From positions 124,775-188,774 of the forward strand of contig NZ_VOSC01000033.1 of assembly GCF_007997385.1 (NCBI RefSeq): DNA of 64,000 nt. Direction: 5' to 3'. The stretch's first letter is position 1, and the number at the start of each line of letters is the position of its first letter. A program made the position numbers and the translations under genes. The notes under the pieces were generated by a model, which saw only the letters and a program-made list of their open reading frames with translations, searched no databases and was not told the origin of the DNA. The DNA is from Seonamhaeicola algicola (GTDB lineage: Bacteria; Bacteroidota; Bacteroidia; Flavobacteriales; Flavobacteriaceae). Of this stretch, positions 42,662 to 48,829 are shown one piece after another.

Positions 42662-42997
42662 ATGCAAAAAACATATTATGATCCGGCCGATTTAAGAAAA
42701 TTTGGAAAAATAACTGAATGGAACGAAGAATTAGGCAATAAATTTTTTGAATATTACGGTAAAGTTTTTGAAGAAGGTGCCTTAACAGCACGCGAAAAAA
42801 GCCTAATTGCCTTAGCTGTAGCGCATACCGAACAATGCCCTTATTGCATTGACGCTTACACAAAAGACGGTTTACAACGCGGTGTTACAAAAGAAGAGAT
42901 GATGGAAGCCATACACGTTGGTGCTGCCATTAAAAGCGGAGCAACTTTAGTGCACGGTGTACAAATGATGAATAAAGTTAATAAACTGGACGGGTAA
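42662..42997 (+). CDS. Arsenosugar biosynthesis-associated peroxidase-like (AhpD-type) protein
   Basis: A 111-residue protein of the carboxymuconolactone decarboxylase/AhpD fold. It has the redox pair CPYC in HTEQCPYCIDAYT (Cys near residues 60 and 63) and GAAIKSGATLVHGVQM in the last helix. Proteins of this subgroup are found beside ArsS radical SAM proteins in many bacteria, some with selenocysteine; this one has Cys. A role in supplying or relaying reducing power is inferred. It is the first gene of the cluster, 216 bases before arsS. Confidence 0.82.
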   Translation: MQKTYYDPADLRKFGKITEWNEELGNKFFEYYGKVFEEGALTAREKSLIALAVAHTEQCPYCIDAYTKDGLQRGVTKEEMMEAIHVGAAIKSGATLVHGVQMMNKVNKLDG

Positions 42998-43151
42998 ATA
43001 GTAAAAAGTTAAACCCCTAATTACGATACAGTCAGAAGTATCAAAAATCTGAAAAATGATAAAGTAAAGCGTGAAGAGCCACAACGCAGCTTTAAGCGTA
43101 AAACGCAGAAAGAGAATCTTGCTTTAACAATTTCCTGTTTTTGATTTCATT

Positions 43152-43189
43152 TTTTGGTTCGTTTTGTATCAATATATAATGAACCAAAA
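43152..43189. repeat. Inverted repeat upstream of arsS
   Basis: TTTTGGTTC (43152-43160) and GAACCAAAA (43181-43189) are perfect complements separated by 20 bases. The right arm ends 24 bases before the arsS ATG. It could be an operator or an RNA hairpin in the leader. Confidence 0.45.
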
Positions 43190-43213
43190 CTAAAAGTATT
43201 TTACAGCAGCAAT

Positions 43214-44278
43214 ATGACGAATATAAAAACACAGTCACTACATAAACGCAAAAGTAATTTAGCGCAAAGTAATAAACAATTAGAAATTCTTTCATATGGC
43301 ATTTTCCAAAACGGCGAATTACCAACTTTTAAAGATAAAATTTCTGAAACCAATCAGTTTCCGCTTAAAGCTAAAAAACTTGAAATACTACAAATTAATG
43401 TAGGCTACATGTGCAACCAAGTATGCGAACATTGCCATGTTGATGCGGGTCCAGACCGACAAGAAATAATGACACGCGAAACCATGCTACAATGCTTAAA
43501 CGTTATTAAAAGCACTGGCGCCCACACCTTAGATTTAACAGGCGGAGCACCAGAAATGAATCCTAATTTTCGTTGGTTTGTTGAAGAAGCTGCTAAAGCT
43601 GGTATTAAAGATTTTATTGTACGTTCAAACCTTACAATTATTAGAGCCAATAAAAAATACCATGATTTACCTGAATTCTTCAAAAAACACAACGTTCATA
43701 TAGTAAGCTCTATGCCTCACTGGACACGTGGAAAAACAGACAAACAACGTGGTGATGGTGTTTTTGATAAATCTATTCAGGCTTTAAAAGACTTAAATGC
43801 TATTGGTTATGGCATGCCAAATAGTAGTTTAAAATTAGATTTAGTATACAATCCTTCTGGTGCATTTTTACCTGGTAACCAAGCTGCTATGGAAAAAGAT
43901 TTTAAAAAAGCACTTTTAGAAGATTTTGGCATTCAATTTCATAATTTATTTGCTATTACAAACCTGCCTATTAGCCGCTTTTTAGATTATTTAATTGCTT
44001 CAGACAATTATGAAGATTACATGTATCAATTAGTTGATGCCTACAATCCTTCAGCCGTTTCAAATGTAATGTGTACTAACACACTATCTGTAAGTTGGGA
44101 TGGTTATTTATTTGATTGCGATTTTAACCAAATGTTAGCACTGCCTGTTAATAGCAAAGTAAAACACATTTCAGAATACAACGAAGCACTTTTAGAAAAC
44201 CGAAACATAGTAATTTCACAACATTGTTATGGTTGTACTGCCGGTGCTGGCAGCAGCTGCCAAGGCACAGTAGCTTAA
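43214..44278 (+). CDS. arsS: Arsenosugar biosynthesis radical SAM protein ArsS
   Basis: A 354-residue radical SAM enzyme with the 4Fe-4S motif CNQVCEHC (CxxxCxxC, near residues 73-80) and the following HVDAGPDR, GGAPEMNP and FNQMLALP segments. The C-terminus is Cys-rich, CYGCTAGAGSSCQG, as in the ArsS/TIGR04167 family, where the tail Cys can be selenocysteine. The enzyme is thought to join a methylated arsenical with the 5'-deoxyadenosyl part of SAM. The start was set at 43214 because the upstream extension from 43154 is not family-like. The stop lies 11 bases before the rhodanese. Confidence 0.9.
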   Translation: MTNIKTQSLHKRKSNLAQSNKQLEILSYGIFQNGELPTFKDKISETNQFPLKAKKLEILQINVGYMCNQVCEHCHVDAGPDRQEIMTRETMLQCLNVIKSTGAHTLDLTGGAPEMNPNFRWFVEEAAKAGIKDFIVRSNLTIIRANKKYHDLPEFFKKHNVHIVSSMPHWTRGKTDKQRGDGVFDKSIQALKDLNAIGYGMPNSSLKLDLVYNPSGAFLPGNQAAMEKDFKKALLEDFGIQFHNLFAITNLPISRFLDYLIASDNYEDYMYQLVDAYNPSAVSNVMCTNTLSVSWDGYLFDCDFNQMLALPVNSKVKHISEYNEALLENRNIVISQHCYGCTAGAGSSCQGTVA

Positions 44279-44289
44279 TTTTTTATTCC

Positions 44290-44781
44290 ATGAAACAGCT
44301 ATTAATTTCACTAGTAACATTAACTTCTTGTTTAGGGTTTTCACAAAAAAAACTAGATAAACTACTTAAACAACATAACACTGAAAGCGTACCTTACATG
44401 TATGTTGACAGTTTAAAAACAACTGAAAAAATAATTCTTCTAGATGCCCGAGAACCCTACGAGTTTAACACAAGCCACATTAAAAACGCTGTATTTGTAG
44501 GATACAACAATTTTAATTTAGATAGCGTTACCGCAAAACTTACAAACAAAAATTCAAAAATTGTAGTATACTGTTCTCTAGGAATAAGATCTGAAGATAT
44601 TGCTGAAAAACTTCAACAAATTGGCTATAAAAATGTTTACAACCTTTACGGAGGCATTTTTGAATGGAAAAATAATGGAAATCCTGTTTTTAATTCCGAA
44701 GAAAAAGAAACTGAAAACGTTCATACATTTTCAAAACCATGGAGCAAATGGTTAAAAAAAGGTACTAAAATTTATGAGTAA
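44290..44781 (+). CDS. Exported rhodanese-like protein
   Basis: A 163-residue protein with an N-terminal signal (LISLVTLTSCLGFSQ) and a rhodanese domain. The active-site Cys is in VVYCSLGIRSEDIA, preceded by LLDAREPYEFNTSHIKNAVF, the usual rhodanese start. LTSC could be a lipobox with Cys14, or the signal may be cut after FSQ. Rhodaneses transfer sulfane sulfur. The position between arsS and a TIGR04282-type transferase suggests a part in the arsenosugar pathway or in thiolation of arsenicals. The start of the next gene overlaps its end by eight bases. Confidence 0.85.
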   Translation: MKQLLISLVTLTSCLGFSQKKLDKLLKQHNTESVPYMYVDSLKTTEKIILLDAREPYEFNTSHIKNAVFVGYNNFNLDSVTAKLTNKNSKIVVYCSLGIRSEDIAEKLQQIGYKNVYNLYGGIFEWKNNGNPVFNSEEKETENVHTFSKPWSKWLKKGTKIYE

Positions 44782-45403
44782 AGAATTAATTATTGTTTTT
44801 GTAAAAAACGCCCAACTTGGTAAAGTAAAAACAAGGCTTGCCAAAACAATTGGCAACAAAAACGCCCTGTTTATATACAATACTTTAGTAGGCATTACTA
44901 AAAATGCTATTAATAACTTAAATATTAGCAAGCGTATTTATTTCTCTGAAACTATTGAAAATAATACGTGGCCTAATACTGAAGCCTACGTGCAAAACGG
45001 TAACAATTTAGGGCAACGCATGCAAAACGCCTTTACAGAAGCATTTGCTGACGGTTATGAACGTGTGGTTTTAATAGGCTCTGATTTGCCCGATATTAAC
45101 AAAAGCATCATACAAAATGCACTAACCAAATTAGAAAACAACACATGCGTTTTTGGGCCCGCCGATGACGGTGGATATTACCTAATTGGCTTATCAAAAA
45201 TGACGCCATCAGTTTTTAAAAATAAACCTTGGAGCCAGCCAAATTTACTACAAGAAACCACCAAAGAGTTACAAGAAAATAACATTACATTTAGTACTTT
45301 AGAAACTTTAAATGACATTGATACGTTTGATGATTTAAAAGCATCAACCTTTTACAAATTAAATGTAGAATTACAAGAAAAACTTAAAAAACAATCATGT
45401 TAA
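44774..45403 (+). CDS. TIGR04282-type CofC-like transferase
   Basis: A 209-residue enzyme of the GT-A/nucleotidyltransferase fold, like CofC, with IVFVKNAQLGKVKTRLAKTIG at the N-terminus, the LIGSDLPDINKS segment and GPADDGGYYLIGL. Members of this subgroup lie beside radical SAM/ArsS genes and are annotated as arsenosugar biosynthesis glycosyltransferases. The fold also fits a nucleotidyl transfer to a sugar 1-phosphate. The genes before and after overlap by seven or eight bases, so expression is coupled. Confidence 0.85.
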   Translation: MSKELIIVFVKNAQLGKVKTRLAKTIGNKNALFIYNTLVGITKNAINNLNISKRIYFSETIENNTWPNTEAYVQNGNNLGQRMQNAFTEAFADGYERVVLIGSDLPDINKSIIQNALTKLENNTCVFGPADDGGYYLIGLSKMTPSVFKNKPWSQPNLLQETTKELQENNITFSTLETLNDIDTFDDLKASTFYKLNVELQEKLKKQSC

Positions 45404-46209
45404 AATACATAGAAGAAACCGCAGAATACCTTGAAGAAAAAGGGTTTAAATCTCCTGAAATTGGTATTATTTTAGGTACAGGTTTAGGGCAACTGCTTAA
45501 TCATATTGAAATTTTAAAAGAGGTTAGCTATAACCACATTCCAAATTTCCCTACTGCTACGGTAGAGTTTCATAAAGGCAAACTAATTTACGGTAATTTA
45601 GAAGGTAAAAAAGTAATTGTAATGCAAGGGCGTTTTCATTTATACGAAGGCTACACGTTACAAGATGTTACATTTCCTGTTAGAATTATGGAAAAACTTG
45701 GTATTAAAACGCTTTTAGTATCTAATGCAGCCGGAGCCATAAATTTAAATTTCAAAAAAGGCGAACTTATGCTTATTGATGACCACATAAACCTTCAAGG
45801 TAGCTCGCCACTTGCCTTCAAGGGCGTATCGCTTTTAGGAGAACGCTTTACTGATATGAGCGCGCCTTATGATAAAAAATTAAACAATACTTTTGAAAGC
45901 ATAGCAAAAACCCACAATATTACACTACACAAAGGTGTTTATGCATCGGTAGTTGGTCCGCAACTAGAAACCAGAGCAGAATACCGTATGCTTAAAATTA
46001 TAGGTGCAGATGCCGTTGGTATGAGTACTGTGCCTGAAATTATTGTTGCCAACCACTTGAATTTAAAAGTAGCTGCGGTGTCAGTTTTAACAGATGAATG
46101 CGACCCAGATAACTTAGAACCTGTAAACATTGATGATATTATTGCAAATGCTGCCAAAGCAGAACCCAATATGATTACCTTGTTTAAAGAACTTATTAAT
46201 AGTTTATAG
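45397..46209 (+). CDS. Purine-nucleoside phosphorylase
   Basis: A 270-residue phosphorylase of the trimeric (PNP/MTAP) family. It has GIILGTGLGQLLNHIE (phosphate loop), MQGRFHLYEGYTLQDVTFPV, LLVSNAAGAINLNFKKGELM and GVYASVVGPQLETRAEYRML, then GADAVGMSTVPEII. It splits purine nucleosides to the base and ribose 1-phosphate. It is inside the arsenosugar cluster, which suggests a specific nucleoside substrate such as a dimethylarsinoyl-adenosine intermediate; that is inference. It could equally be the general salvage PNP. It overlaps the previous gene by seven bases. Confidence 0.9.
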   Translation: MLKYIEETAEYLEEKGFKSPEIGIILGTGLGQLLNHIEILKEVSYNHIPNFPTATVEFHKGKLIYGNLEGKKVIVMQGRFHLYEGYTLQDVTFPVRIMEKLGIKTLLVSNAAGAINLNFKKGELMLIDDHINLQGSSPLAFKGVSLLGERFTDMSAPYDKKLNNTFESIAKTHNITLHKGVYASVVGPQLETRAEYRMLKIIGADAVGMSTVPEIIVANHLNLKVAAVSVLTDECDPDNLEPVNIDDIIANAAKAEPNMITLFKELINSL

Positions 46210-46280
46210 CGCCATTTTCAGTTATCTACTAATCAAAGTTTAACTTAAAAAACGCATACTTAAAAACAAAACACTAAATC

Positions 46281-47249
46281 ATGAGTTACTTAGAAACCAC
46301 AAAAAACGTATATAAAGAGGCCGCATTAACGCCCGATGTTGGTTTATGTTGTACAACCAATCCTATTTGGGAATTACCCGGATTAAAAATTCCTAAAATA
46401 ATGCAAGAAATGAATTATGGTTGTGGATCAACAGTGCATGCGCGTGATTTATCAAACAATCCTAAAATGTTATATGTTGGTGTTGGTGGCGGCATGGAGT
46501 TACTTCAGTTTTCATATTTCAACAGAGAAAAAGGCGGTGTAATTGGTATAGATGTAGTTGATGAAATGCTTGAAGCTTCACGAAAAAATTTTATTGAAGC
46601 CGAAACACAAAACCCTTGGTTTAAAAGTGAGTTTGTAGATTTACGAAAAGGTGACGCCCTAAATTTACCTGTTGAAGACAACAGCATTGATGTAGCGGCG
46701 CAAAATTGTTTATTCAATATTTTTAAAGAAGCCGATTTAAAAAAAGCTATTGCCGAAATGTACCGTGTACTAAAACCTCACGGACGTTTAGTAATGAGCG
46801 ATCCCACTTGTGAGCAACCCATGAACAACAATTTACGTAATGACGAACGCTTAAGAGCCCTTTGCTTAAGCGGTAGTTTACCAATTAACGAATACGTAAA
46901 AATGCTAACCGATGCTGGTTTTGGCACTATTGAAATTAGAGCCAGAAAGCCTTACAGAATATTAAGCCCCAAAGATTATGATACTAATGAATTAATTTAC
47001 ATTGAATCTATTGAAGTGGCTGCTATAAAAGACCCTATGCCTGCAGACGGCCCATGTGTATTTACAGGAAAAGCTGCTATTTATTTTGGTGAAAATGATT
47101 TCTTTGATGATAACGCTGGCCATATTTTACTTAAAAATCAGCCATTGGCTATTTGTGATAAAACTGCTGGCGCTTTAGCAAAGCTTAACAGAGATGATAT
47201 TTTTATAAGCAAATCTACTTACCATTATGATGGTGGTGGTTGCTGCTAA
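46281..47249 (+). CDS. arsM: Arsenosugar-type arsenite methyltransferase ArsM
   Basis: A 322-residue SAM-dependent methyltransferase. The SAM-binding motif is MLYVGVGGGMELLQFSYF near residues 60-77, followed by GVIGIDVVDEML. The early Cys pair in DVGLCCTTNP (Cys23, Cys24), Cys in the segments NYGCGSTVHARDL and SDPTCEQPM, and a final GGGCC give the Cys-rich character expected of arsenic-binding methyltransferases. Methylated arsenicals are the substrate of ArsS. The gene lies 71 bases after PNP, with no terminator between. Confidence 0.88.
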   Translation: MSYLETTKNVYKEAALTPDVGLCCTTNPIWELPGLKIPKIMQEMNYGCGSTVHARDLSNNPKMLYVGVGGGMELLQFSYFNREKGGVIGIDVVDEMLEASRKNFIEAETQNPWFKSEFVDLRKGDALNLPVEDNSIDVAAQNCLFNIFKEADLKKAIAEMYRVLKPHGRLVMSDPTCEQPMNNNLRNDERLRALCLSGSLPINEYVKMLTDAGFGTIEIRARKPYRILSPKDYDTNELIYIESIEVAAIKDPMPADGPCVFTGKAAIYFGENDFFDDNAGHILLKNQPLAICDKTAGALAKLNRDDIFISKSTYHYDGGGCC

Positions 47250-47259
47250 AAACATAATT

Positions 47260-48111
47260 ATGGCGCGTATTATCATGTTACTTTTTTGTGTAGCCTGTAT
47301 TTCTTGTAAAACAAAAAAGCAAGCTACAACCATAAAAAACACTAACAACCCCATTGTTAAAGTTGCTAAACAGCAAGATAGTGTTACTAAAAATATTCAA
47401 AACCCAACCAATCAAGATACTGTTGTAAGTAAATTTAATCAGGTTTTAAGTAAAAAAACATACAGTGCCCACCAGCTATGGAATGAACTTTTACAAAAGC
47501 ATGTTTCAACAAATGGAAATGTTGATTACATAGGATTTAAAGAAGACCAAGAAGATTTTTATGGTTACTTATATTCTTTAAATTTAATGTATAAACATGA
47601 AAGCTTTAAAACACTAACAAAAGAAGAAAAACTGGCCTTTTGGATTAATGCCTACAATGCTTTAACAGTAGATTTAATTTTACGAAATTATCCAACTACC
47701 AGCATTAGAAACATAAAAGACCCATGGAAACAACGCCTTTGGAAATTTGGAAACAAATGGTATAATCTTGATGAGATTGAACATGCCATTTTACGAAAAA
47801 TGGATGAACCTAGAATTCATTTTGCTATAAACTGCGCTTCAATTTCATGCCCTAAATTGCAAAACAAAGCGTTTACTTCTAAAAATTTAGAAACGCAATT
47901 AACAAACGCTACAAAAGCATTTTTATTAGATACTTCAAAAAATATTATATCAAAAAATGCTATTCAAATTTCAAAAATATTTCAGTGGTTTTCAAAAGAT
48001 TTTAAAACTAACGGCTCTTTAATAGATTTTTTAAACACCTACTCTACAGTGCAAATTTCGGCTAATGCCAAAAAAAGTTTTTTAGATTATAACTGGAATT
48101 TAAATGAATAA
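47260..48111 (+). CDS. DUF547 lipoprotein
   Basis: A 283-residue protein with a short lipoprotein signal (FCVACISC, lipidated Cys about residue 14) and a DUF547 domain: NEVDYIGFKEDQ-like residues, EEKLAFWINAYNALTVDLIL, and IHFAINCASISCPKLQNKAF. Function is unknown for the family; it is often next to redox or secretion genes. It starts 10 bases after arsM and overlaps the next gene by eight bases. A second DUF547 gene is at 55668-56378. The start was set at 47260; the upstream frame is not a signal peptide. Confidence 0.85.
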   Translation: MARIIMLLFCVACISCKTKKQATTIKNTNNPIVKVAKQQDSVTKNIQNPTNQDTVVSKFNQVLSKKTYSAHQLWNELLQKHVSTNGNVDYIGFKEDQEDFYGYLYSLNLMYKHESFKTLTKEEKLAFWINAYNALTVDLILRNYPTTSIRNIKDPWKQRLWKFGNKWYNLDEIEHAILRKMDEPRIHFAINCASISCPKLQNKAFTSKNLETQLTNATKAFLLDTSKNIISKNAIQISKIFQWFSKDFKTNGSLIDFLNTYSTVQISANAKKSFLDYNWNLNE

Positions 48112-48829
48112 CATTTCAATAATAATACCTACTTTAAACGAAGAAGCTTTTATTGAAAAATTGTTAAACCACCTGCTTCAAAATGCTTCAACAAAAAACA
48201 TAAAAGACATTTTAATAGTTGATGGCGGCAGCACTGATAATACCATTACTTTAGTAAAACAGTTTATTAATTTTAATAGTTTCAACCAAACTAATGTAAA
48301 AATTTTAACCGCAGCCAAAGGGCGTGCAAAACAAATGAATACAGGTGTTAAACACGCTAAAGGCAGCATTTTATATTTTTTACACGCCGATTCTTTTCCG
48401 CCAAAAAACTTTGATAAACTCATACTAAGTGAAGTTGAAAAAGGTAATGAAGCCGGCTGTTTTAAAATGAAGTTTAACAGCCAACATTGGTGGTTAAAAT
48501 TTACGGGGTGGCTTACACAGTTTTCATGGAAAAGTGCCCGTGGTGGTGACCAAAGTTTATTTGTAACTAACACACTTTTTAATACTATTGGCGGTTTTAA
48601 TGAACGTTTTATTGTTTATGAAGACAATGATTTTATTGCCAAACTTTACCAAAAAAAGCAATTTGTAGTTATACAAAAATGGCTAACAACATCTCCAAGG
48701 CGCTATAACAAAAATGGCGTTTGGCGCTTGCAATATCATTTTTTAAACATTCACTTAAAAAAATGGCTTGGTGCTAATGCCGAAACGTTAAACAACTACT
48801 ATTTAAAGCATGTAGCTGTTAAAAAATAG
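48104..48829 (+). CDS. TIGR04283-type GT2 glycosyltransferase
   Basis: A 241-residue family-2 glycosyltransferase with IIIPTLNEEAFIEKLLNHL at the N-terminus, the DxD-like LIVDGGSTDNT, GRAKQMNTGVKHAKG and LYFLHADSFPP, then ARGGDQSLFVTNTLFNTIGG and FIVYEDNDFIAKL. This is the TIGR04283 arrangement, called an arsenosugar biosynthesis glycosyltransferase when next to arsS and arsM. It overlaps the DUF547 gene by eight bases. The acceptor is unknown. It is the last gene of the cluster on this strand. Confidence 0.85.
   Translation: MNNISIIIPTLNEEAFIEKLLNHLLQNASTKNIKDILIVDGGSTDNTITLVKQFINFNSFNQTNVKILTAAKGRAKQMNTGVKHAKGSILYFLHADSFPPKNFDKLILSEVEKGNEAGCFKMKFNSQHWWLKFTGWLTQFSWKSARGGDQSLFVTNTLFNTIGGFNERFIVYEDNDFIAKLYQKKQFVVIQKWLTTSPRRYNKNGVWRLQYHFLNIHLKKWLGANAETLNNYYLKHVAVKK

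Follow-up and report, generated by a model that had tools for sequence, protein, structure and literature searches.

A purine nucleoside phosphorylase with a proposed role in an arsenosugar-type gene cluster of Seonamhaeicola algicola

Which enzymes carry the nucleoside made by ArsS onward to an arsenosugar? Arsenosugars are among the main arsenic compounds in marine organisms, and the adenosylation of dimethylarsinite by ArsS is published chemistry; we know of no genes assigned to the steps that follow. The question is raised by a 64,000-nucleotide stretch of the Seonamhaeicola algicola genome (Flavobacteriaceae, Flavobacteriales; contig NZ_VOSC01000033.1, positions 124,775 to 188,774), hereafter the window, in which eight open reading frames (ORFs) on the + strand span positions 42662-48829. 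Judging from the sequences, we regard it as reasonably probable that these genes are a biosynthetic cluster for an arsenosugar or arsenosugar lipid, one which dismantles and re-activates a nucleoside derived from S-adenosylmethionine (SAM). NCBIfam names already reflect the existence of the array; what is new is the role proposed here for its purine nucleoside phosphorylase (PNP).

The eight-gene array

The genes are as follows, each with its profile score in bits against the cut-off of the model:

42662..42997, + strand: AhpD-like CxxC protein of an arsenosugar-associated peroxidase-like family (TIGR04169, 193.8 against 120; PF02627)
43214..44278, + strand: ArsS, radical SAM enzyme (TIGR04167, 441.1 against 300)
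44290..44781, + strand: exported rhodanese (NF045521, 208.7 against 145)
44774..45403, + strand: CofC-like protein, predicted nucleotidyltransferase (TIGR04282, 196.5 against 134)
45397..46209, + strand: PNP, trimeric type, non-His class (NF006054 (PRK08202), 345.6 against 218)
46281..47249, + strand: ArsM, arsenosugar-type arsenite methyltransferase (NF038099, 576.5 against 400)
47260..48111 (alternative start 47227), + strand: DUF547 protein with an N-terminal hydrophobic segment (Pfam PF04784, 102.7 against 27)
48104..48829, + strand: GT2-type glycosyltransferase (TIGR04283, 228.6 against 182)

Seven of the eight proteins score above the curated cut-offs of NCBIfam models, and for five of them the name of the model mentions arsenosugar biosynthesis; the DUF547 protein has no NCBIfam match. 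ArsS, ArsM and members of TIGR04169, TIGR04282 and TIGR04283 thus stand together in one array, the combination that the NCBIfam names tie to arsenosugar clusters. An initial annotation made from the letters alone had described eight same-strand genes, some overlapping by seven or eight bases, and had staked its reading on the product at 43214 belonging to ArsS; both claims hold, and the five profiles it had named for checking (TIGR04167, TIGR04169, TIGR04282, TIGR04283 and ArsM) all score above their cut-offs. Overlaps occur in three adjacent pairs (rhodanese/CofC-like, 8 bases; CofC-like/PNP, 7; DUF547/glycosyltransferase, 8), and the remaining gaps measure 216, 11, 71 and 10 bases when ArsS is taken to start at ATG 43214 and the DUF547 protein at ATG 47260. 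The 216 bases separate the AhpD-like gene from ArsS, which makes this first gene only a putative member of a common transcript. The array is flanked by an acyl-CoA dehydrogenase gene upstream and a gene for a CarbopepD_reg_2-domain protein downstream.

The same annotation had left PNP, the rhodanese and the DUF547 protein without an explanation. It had seen a biosynthetic rather than a plain resistance unit, a view which the family memberships support, and had noted an absence of resistance genes nearby. The latter stands in part: the eight genes all belong to other families and include neither an arsenite pump nor an arsenate reductase, ArsR was not searched, and the 3.7 Mb host genome carries Acr3 and two ArsC-family (PF03960) matches on other contigs.

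Related loci (the 80 top-scoring ArsS loci from named genomes, nearly all from Flavobacteriaceae) confirm that the conserved array is real and not a product of chance, because under the score limits applied 17 of them hold all eight families and all 17 keep the window's gene order; the conservation of order within Flavobacteriaceae suggested for checking by the initial annotation is thereby found. Family frequencies were computed on the 58 of the 80 loci that measure at least 20 kb: AhpD-like 56, CofC-like 39, PNP 39, rhodanese 30, ArsM 30 (32 at a looser score), DUF547 28 and glycosyltransferase 21. The median gap between the AhpD-like gene and ArsS in related loci is 52 bases.

A proposed route through the array

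In the route we propose, arsenite would be methylated by ArsM, and ArsS would add a 5'-deoxyadenosyl radical to dimethylarsinite, giving 5'-deoxy-5'-dimethylarsinoyl-adenosine; for ArsS the family membership is observed here and the chemistry is taken from published work. The cluster PNP would then use phosphate to split this arsenic nucleoside into adenine and 5-deoxy-5-dimethylarsinoyl-ribose-1-phosphate, a step suggested by genomic linkage, by the residues at the site and by non-orthologous replacement. The CofC-like enzyme, by its fold and its adjacency to PNP, may couple the sugar-1-phosphate to a nucleotide, yielding a nucleoside diphosphate (NDP) sugar, and the TIGR04283 enzyme, proposed as the final glycoside-forming step, would transfer the sugar to glycerol or a glycerolipid as a beta-riboside. 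PNPs yield alpha-ribose-1-phosphate, from which an inverting GT2 enzyme gives a beta-riboside as in natural arsenosugars, so that the sequence of an alpha-sugar phosphate and an inverting GT2 fits the natural linkage. The comparison in this way proposes one gene for each chemical step remaining after the ArsS nucleoside. Two of the enzymes show invariant residues: the radical SAM motif CX3CX2C (C67, C71, C74) is invariant across 27 aligned ArsS proteins, and D96 (HAD motif) and E173 of the glycosyltransferase are invariant in 22 aligned TIGR04283 members.

TIGR04282 is named a glycosyltransferase, and the initial annotation had called its member here a transferase. The family match holds, whereas the structural model suggests a greater resemblance to nucleotidyltransferases: it is predicted with a local distance difference test score (pLDDT) of 94.6 and has a nucleotidyltransferase fold (MobA/CofC-like), and its best characterised structural matches are guanylyl- and cytidylyltransferases, so that TIGR04282 itself may be a nucleotidyltransferase family. 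The protein is distinct from CofC proper, scoring 40.3 bits against 105 for the 2-phospho-L-lactate guanylyltransferase family TIGR03552 and sharing only 14-15% identity with CofC/FbiD and 3-phospho-D-glycerate guanylyltransferase. A second, weaker CofC-like paralogue (68-107 bits, below the cut-off of 134) occurs in 13 of the 25 genomes of the order with a TIGR04282 match, near ArsS in several loci (e.g., L053:9274-9975, L074:7768-8442); the window genome has its own elsewhere (G000:C1:94594-95004).

Roles for the remaining proteins are more speculative. The AhpD-like translation contains CPYC, and the protein may hold arsenic in the trivalent state as a thiol redox partner. The exported rhodanese may have sulfur or thio-arsenic species as substrates. 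Its YCxxGxRS loop is present in the window and kept in all 36 relatives scored, none of which matches a lipobox pattern; the window copy has an N-terminus with LTSC, which fits that pattern, so that it may either bear a signal peptide or be a lipoprotein. The predicted DUF547 model (mean pLDDT 86.7) is confident outside its N-terminal stretch, and Foldseek returned no PDB match for it at E <=0.001.

Linkage and lineage of the phosphorylase

An order-level comparison of 196 genomes, with adjacency of PNP and the CofC-like gene read from listed coordinates, places ArsS in 17 genomes and arsenosugar-type ArsM (NF038099) in 15, all of which also have ArsS. TIGR04282 is found in 25, among them all 17 with ArsS. 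PNP directly adjoins the CofC-like gene in 21 of these 25, namely in 16 of the 17 genomes with ArsS and five of the eight without; the sole exception among the former is G153, where the two lie 3.4 kb apart. Eleven of the 17 ArsS-positive genomes have PNP no more than 10 kb from ArsS. The six genomes G102, G109, G167, G013, G150 and G188 have ArsS located elsewhere and PNP still beside the CofC-like gene, and in the first three the detached block reads rhodanese-CofC-PNP-ArsM-DUF547-glycosyltransferase. Likewise, both genes occur in 37 of the 58 named loci of at least 20 kb, with a gap below 900 bases in 36. Because the pair stays adjacent where ArsS lies elsewhere, PNP travels more tightly with the nucleotidyltransferase-like gene than with ArsS. 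In G133 (L086:7361-10958) a module of rhodanese-CofC-PNP-DUF547-glycosyltransferase was found, and genome searches gave neither an ArsS nor an NF038099 match; it is either a remnant or in non-arsenic use.

The window PNP belongs to the trimeric PNP family TIGR01697 (295.1 bits against 197.1) and falls far below the cut-off of the 5'-methylthioadenosine (MTA) phosphorylase family TIGR01694 (97.1 against 274.85); any likeness to MTA phosphorylases is a claim that it works like them only. A histidine which holds the 5'-hydroxyl of the nucleoside, a trait of the canonical class and not of the whole TIGR01697 family, is aligned at this site in the PNP of 8swu. The window protein has Ile245 at the position, with Asp233 at the base site. 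We aligned 135 related, non-independent PNP rows, leaving out those below 240 or above 330 residues and copies that share the last 180 residues. Among the 72 CofC-linked PNPs covering the position, 68 have Ile, three Val, one Leu and not one His; the remaining linked row, the 73rd, is a truncated duplicate of one of these genes. Five of the linked rows stem from genomes without ArsS. His is present in 34 of the 41 rows unlinked to a CofC-like gene. The C-termini differ as well, the cluster PNPs showing a TDECDPDNLxPVNI-type stretch against TD-x-G...HEEV in others.

All 73 CofC-linked rows fall into a single 85-row set of the PNP tree (support 100), the window within a 64-row set of which 63 stand beside a CofC-like gene, and the His class is set apart (support 98); support values are from the Shimodaira-Hasegawa-like approximate likelihood ratio test (SH-aLRT) only, in a quick search. 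Three genomes with ArsS (G064, G191, G153) carry both PNP types. A query model built from 18 PNPs (those of the 17 ArsS-positive genomes of the order, and G133) was searched in 395 genomes of the phylum. Its 19 matches of at least 462 bits come from 18 ArsS-positive genomes of the window's family and from G133, the next best scoring 435; the limit of 462 was chosen after this gap was seen. Within the 41 sampled genomes of the family, this high-scoring lineage thus occurs in 18 of 18 with ArsS and one of 23 without (Fisher p 9e-11, uncorrected for relatedness). The query model had included the single ArsS-negative genome and 14 of these 18, but not the other four. The host genome encodes a separate DeoD-like PNP elsewhere, next to deoC, its family read from sequence and not profiled.

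Phosphorylases outside the order and competing explanations

Among 156 genomes with ArsS, 50 hand-picked ones (about one per genus), 13 others and the window's own were examined, and the comparison of neighbours covered 152 ArsS loci. On plasmids, ArsS turned up in 52 records, of which Burkholderia accounts for 47; six were examined, one per lineage, so that Burkholderia is represented by one of its 47. A gene of the MTA-phosphorylase family lies within 8 kb of ArsS in three of the four proteobacterial plasmid lineages. The Acinetobacter plasmid combines ArsS, DUF547, glycosyltransferase, CofC-like, methyltransferase and phosphate transporter genes with mtnP. In Burkholderia glumae, the CofC-like gene, glycosyltransferase and MTA phosphorylase are grouped about 6 kb from ArsS, the phosphorylase beside the glycosyltransferase. 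Cupriavidus has ArsM, ArsS, the glycosyltransferase and the CofC-like gene together with an MTA-phosphorylase-family ORF overlapping the CofC ORF, all on one strand. The substrates of MTA phosphorylases are 5'-modified adenosines, so that another enzyme with suitable chemistry takes a comparable position here. No other single observation argues as strongly for phosphorolysis as this non-orthologous replacement, which is based on four sampled proteobacterial lineages. One of the cluster MTA phosphorylases (L266:1150-2031) has RsfP (4glf) as its closest solved structure; RsfP is reported from a metagenomic clone of Antarctic soil that had attracted notice by its fluorescence with rhodamine B, its activity then being unexamined (PMC3561333).

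A number of observations weigh against the proposed route. On the plasmids, Acinetobacter mtnP does not share the strand of ArsS, the CofC-like gene and the glycosyltransferase, the whole B. glumae block is opposite to ArsS, and the stretches examined in Thiodictyon, Pseudanabaena and Hymenobacter revealed no phosphorylase. PNP was near ArsS in none of 46 loci outside the order within the stretch examined, so that an unlinked PNP would have to serve there; these loci hold the AhpD-like gene in 43, the CofC-like gene in 18, the glycosyltransferase in 15 and both of the last two in 12. Some named loci from outside Flavobacteriaceae do have PNP near ArsS (e.g., Fulvivirga L248, Cyclobacteriaceae bacterium L255). 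Inside the order, eight of the 25 CofC-positive genomes are without ArsS, and five of these (G133, G014, G026, G074 and G090) retain PNP next to the CofC-like gene, so that the two together may not be specific to arsenic. The CofC module of G114, G119 and G116 has no adjacent PNP and stands beside a fatty-acid-hydroxylase-like gene, and among the 17 ArsS-positive genomes TIGR04283 was not matched in three and NF038099 in two. The active site is likewise equivocal: 20 of 21 PNP loci too short for a linkage call, from other Bacteroidota families, also lack the histidine, as does 4lna. As PNPs without it are usual in those families, loss of the histidine is permissive and compatible with the proposed step, not diagnostic of it.

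The main rival to the arsenosugar reading is a general module, often situated beside ArsM and ArsS, in which PNP, the CofC-like protein, glycosyltransferase, rhodanese and DUF547 protein would convert ordinary nucleosides to NDP-pentose and place the pentose on a lipid or on a molecule of the cell surface. The PNP-CofC pairs in the five genomes without ArsS, the rhodanese-CofC-PNP-DUF547-glycosyltransferase module of G133, the glycosyltransferase kept in six of the eight CofC-positive genomes that lack ArsS and the recurrence of a fatty-acid-hydroxylase-like gene near ArsS (21 of 152 loci) all suit such a module. We nevertheless think it rather unlikely, given that the CofC-like gene occurs in 17 of 17 ArsS-positive against eight of 179 ArsS-negative genomes of the order, that the detached module of G102, G109 and G167 contains ArsM, and that three of the four proteobacterial lineages use the MTA-phosphorylase family, for 5'-deoxy-5'-modified adenosine.

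It seems improbable that the phosphorylase merely recycles 5'-deoxyadenosine or adenine set free when ArsS and other SAM enzymes turn over abortively or in side reactions, making no pathway intermediate. Both the non-His PNP and the MTA-phosphorylase-family proteins would suit 5'-deoxy nucleosides, and NucPNP, from the nucleocidin pathway, reportedly accepts both MTA and adenosine and is a proposed adenine supplier (PMC8694150). Salvage, however, predicts linkage to ArsS, whereas the closest tie of PNP is to the nucleotidyltransferase-like gene. More remote still is a role in arsenate reduction by nucleoside arsenolysis, feeding arsenite to ArsM: PNP with a dithiol is reported to reduce arsenate in vitro (PMC12608789), but the host genome already has its two ArsC-family matches, and PNP adjoins the CofC-like gene in five genomes without ArsS and NF038099 matches. 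The arsenosugar reading in its wider form has, in our judgement, an even chance of being right: a route via an NDP-activated arsenic pentose, for which a phosphorylase was recruited independently in two phyla (PNP in Bacteroidota, the MTA-phosphorylase family in Proteobacteria), with the PNP-CofC pair in genomes lacking ArsS serving a general nucleoside-to-NDP-pentose route.

The roles of ArsM and ArsS would be the same as in the cyanobacterium Synechocystis, where SsArsS and SsArsM are reported to catalyse the initial arsenosugar steps (PMC8552651), and another source describes a radical SAM enzyme that adenosylates arsenic in oxo-arsenosugar biosynthesis (PMC12159101). To this pair the window adds PNP, CofC-like, glycosyltransferase, rhodanese, DUF547 and AhpD-like genes in one array; the one cyanobacterial plasmid stretch examined held only ArsM and ArsS of the window's families. 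Radical SAM adenosylation followed by a nucleoside phosphorylase is paralleled in hopanoids, where HpnH reportedly adenosylates diploptene and HpnG then cleaves the adduct (PMC9228677). The acceptor here would, however, be arsenic and not a triterpene, and the sugar-1-phosphate would be re-activated to an NDP-sugar; ArsS of the window shows a weak alignment with HpnH (31.7 bits, where the cut-off is 225.05), and HpnG is set beside PNP by description only. FlB and SalT are PNP-superfamily enzymes that phosphorolyse a SAM-derived 5'-substituted adenosine in fluorometabolite and salinosporamide biosynthesis. The sugars of these pathways are isomerised or oxidised, whereas the route proposed for the window ends in glycosyl transfer. 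Among the papers listed by literature searches, none gives PNP, an MTA phosphorylase or a nucleotidyltransferase a place in the arsenosugar pathway in its title or abstract, which is weak evidence of novelty because most of the subscription literature lies outside the coverage.

Several further genes recur around ArsS in the 152 loci. The fatty-acid-hydroxylase-like gene (PF04116, assigned by cluster representative) is within 6.5 kb of ArsS in the 21 loci mentioned above (L081:2065-2946, L182:14119-15003, L263:8042-8947 and 18 others), in several just before DUF547, one gammaproteobacterial plasmid included; it is absent from the window. Its recurrence may point to an arsenolipid as product or to a lipid as acceptor. 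A PiT-type phosphate transporter near ArsS in seven loci of two phyla (e.g., L181:16578-17690, L200:15182-16300, L264:15298-16410, L265:6042-7181) could import arsenate, or phosphate for phosphorolysis. In seven loci, from three phyla, a VTT-domain membrane protein and a pyridine-nucleotide-disulphide oxidoreductase occur near ArsS, either as one fused protein or encoded side by side (e.g., L127:11876-14071, L261:4557-6987, L264:9929-12097, L265:10009-12254).

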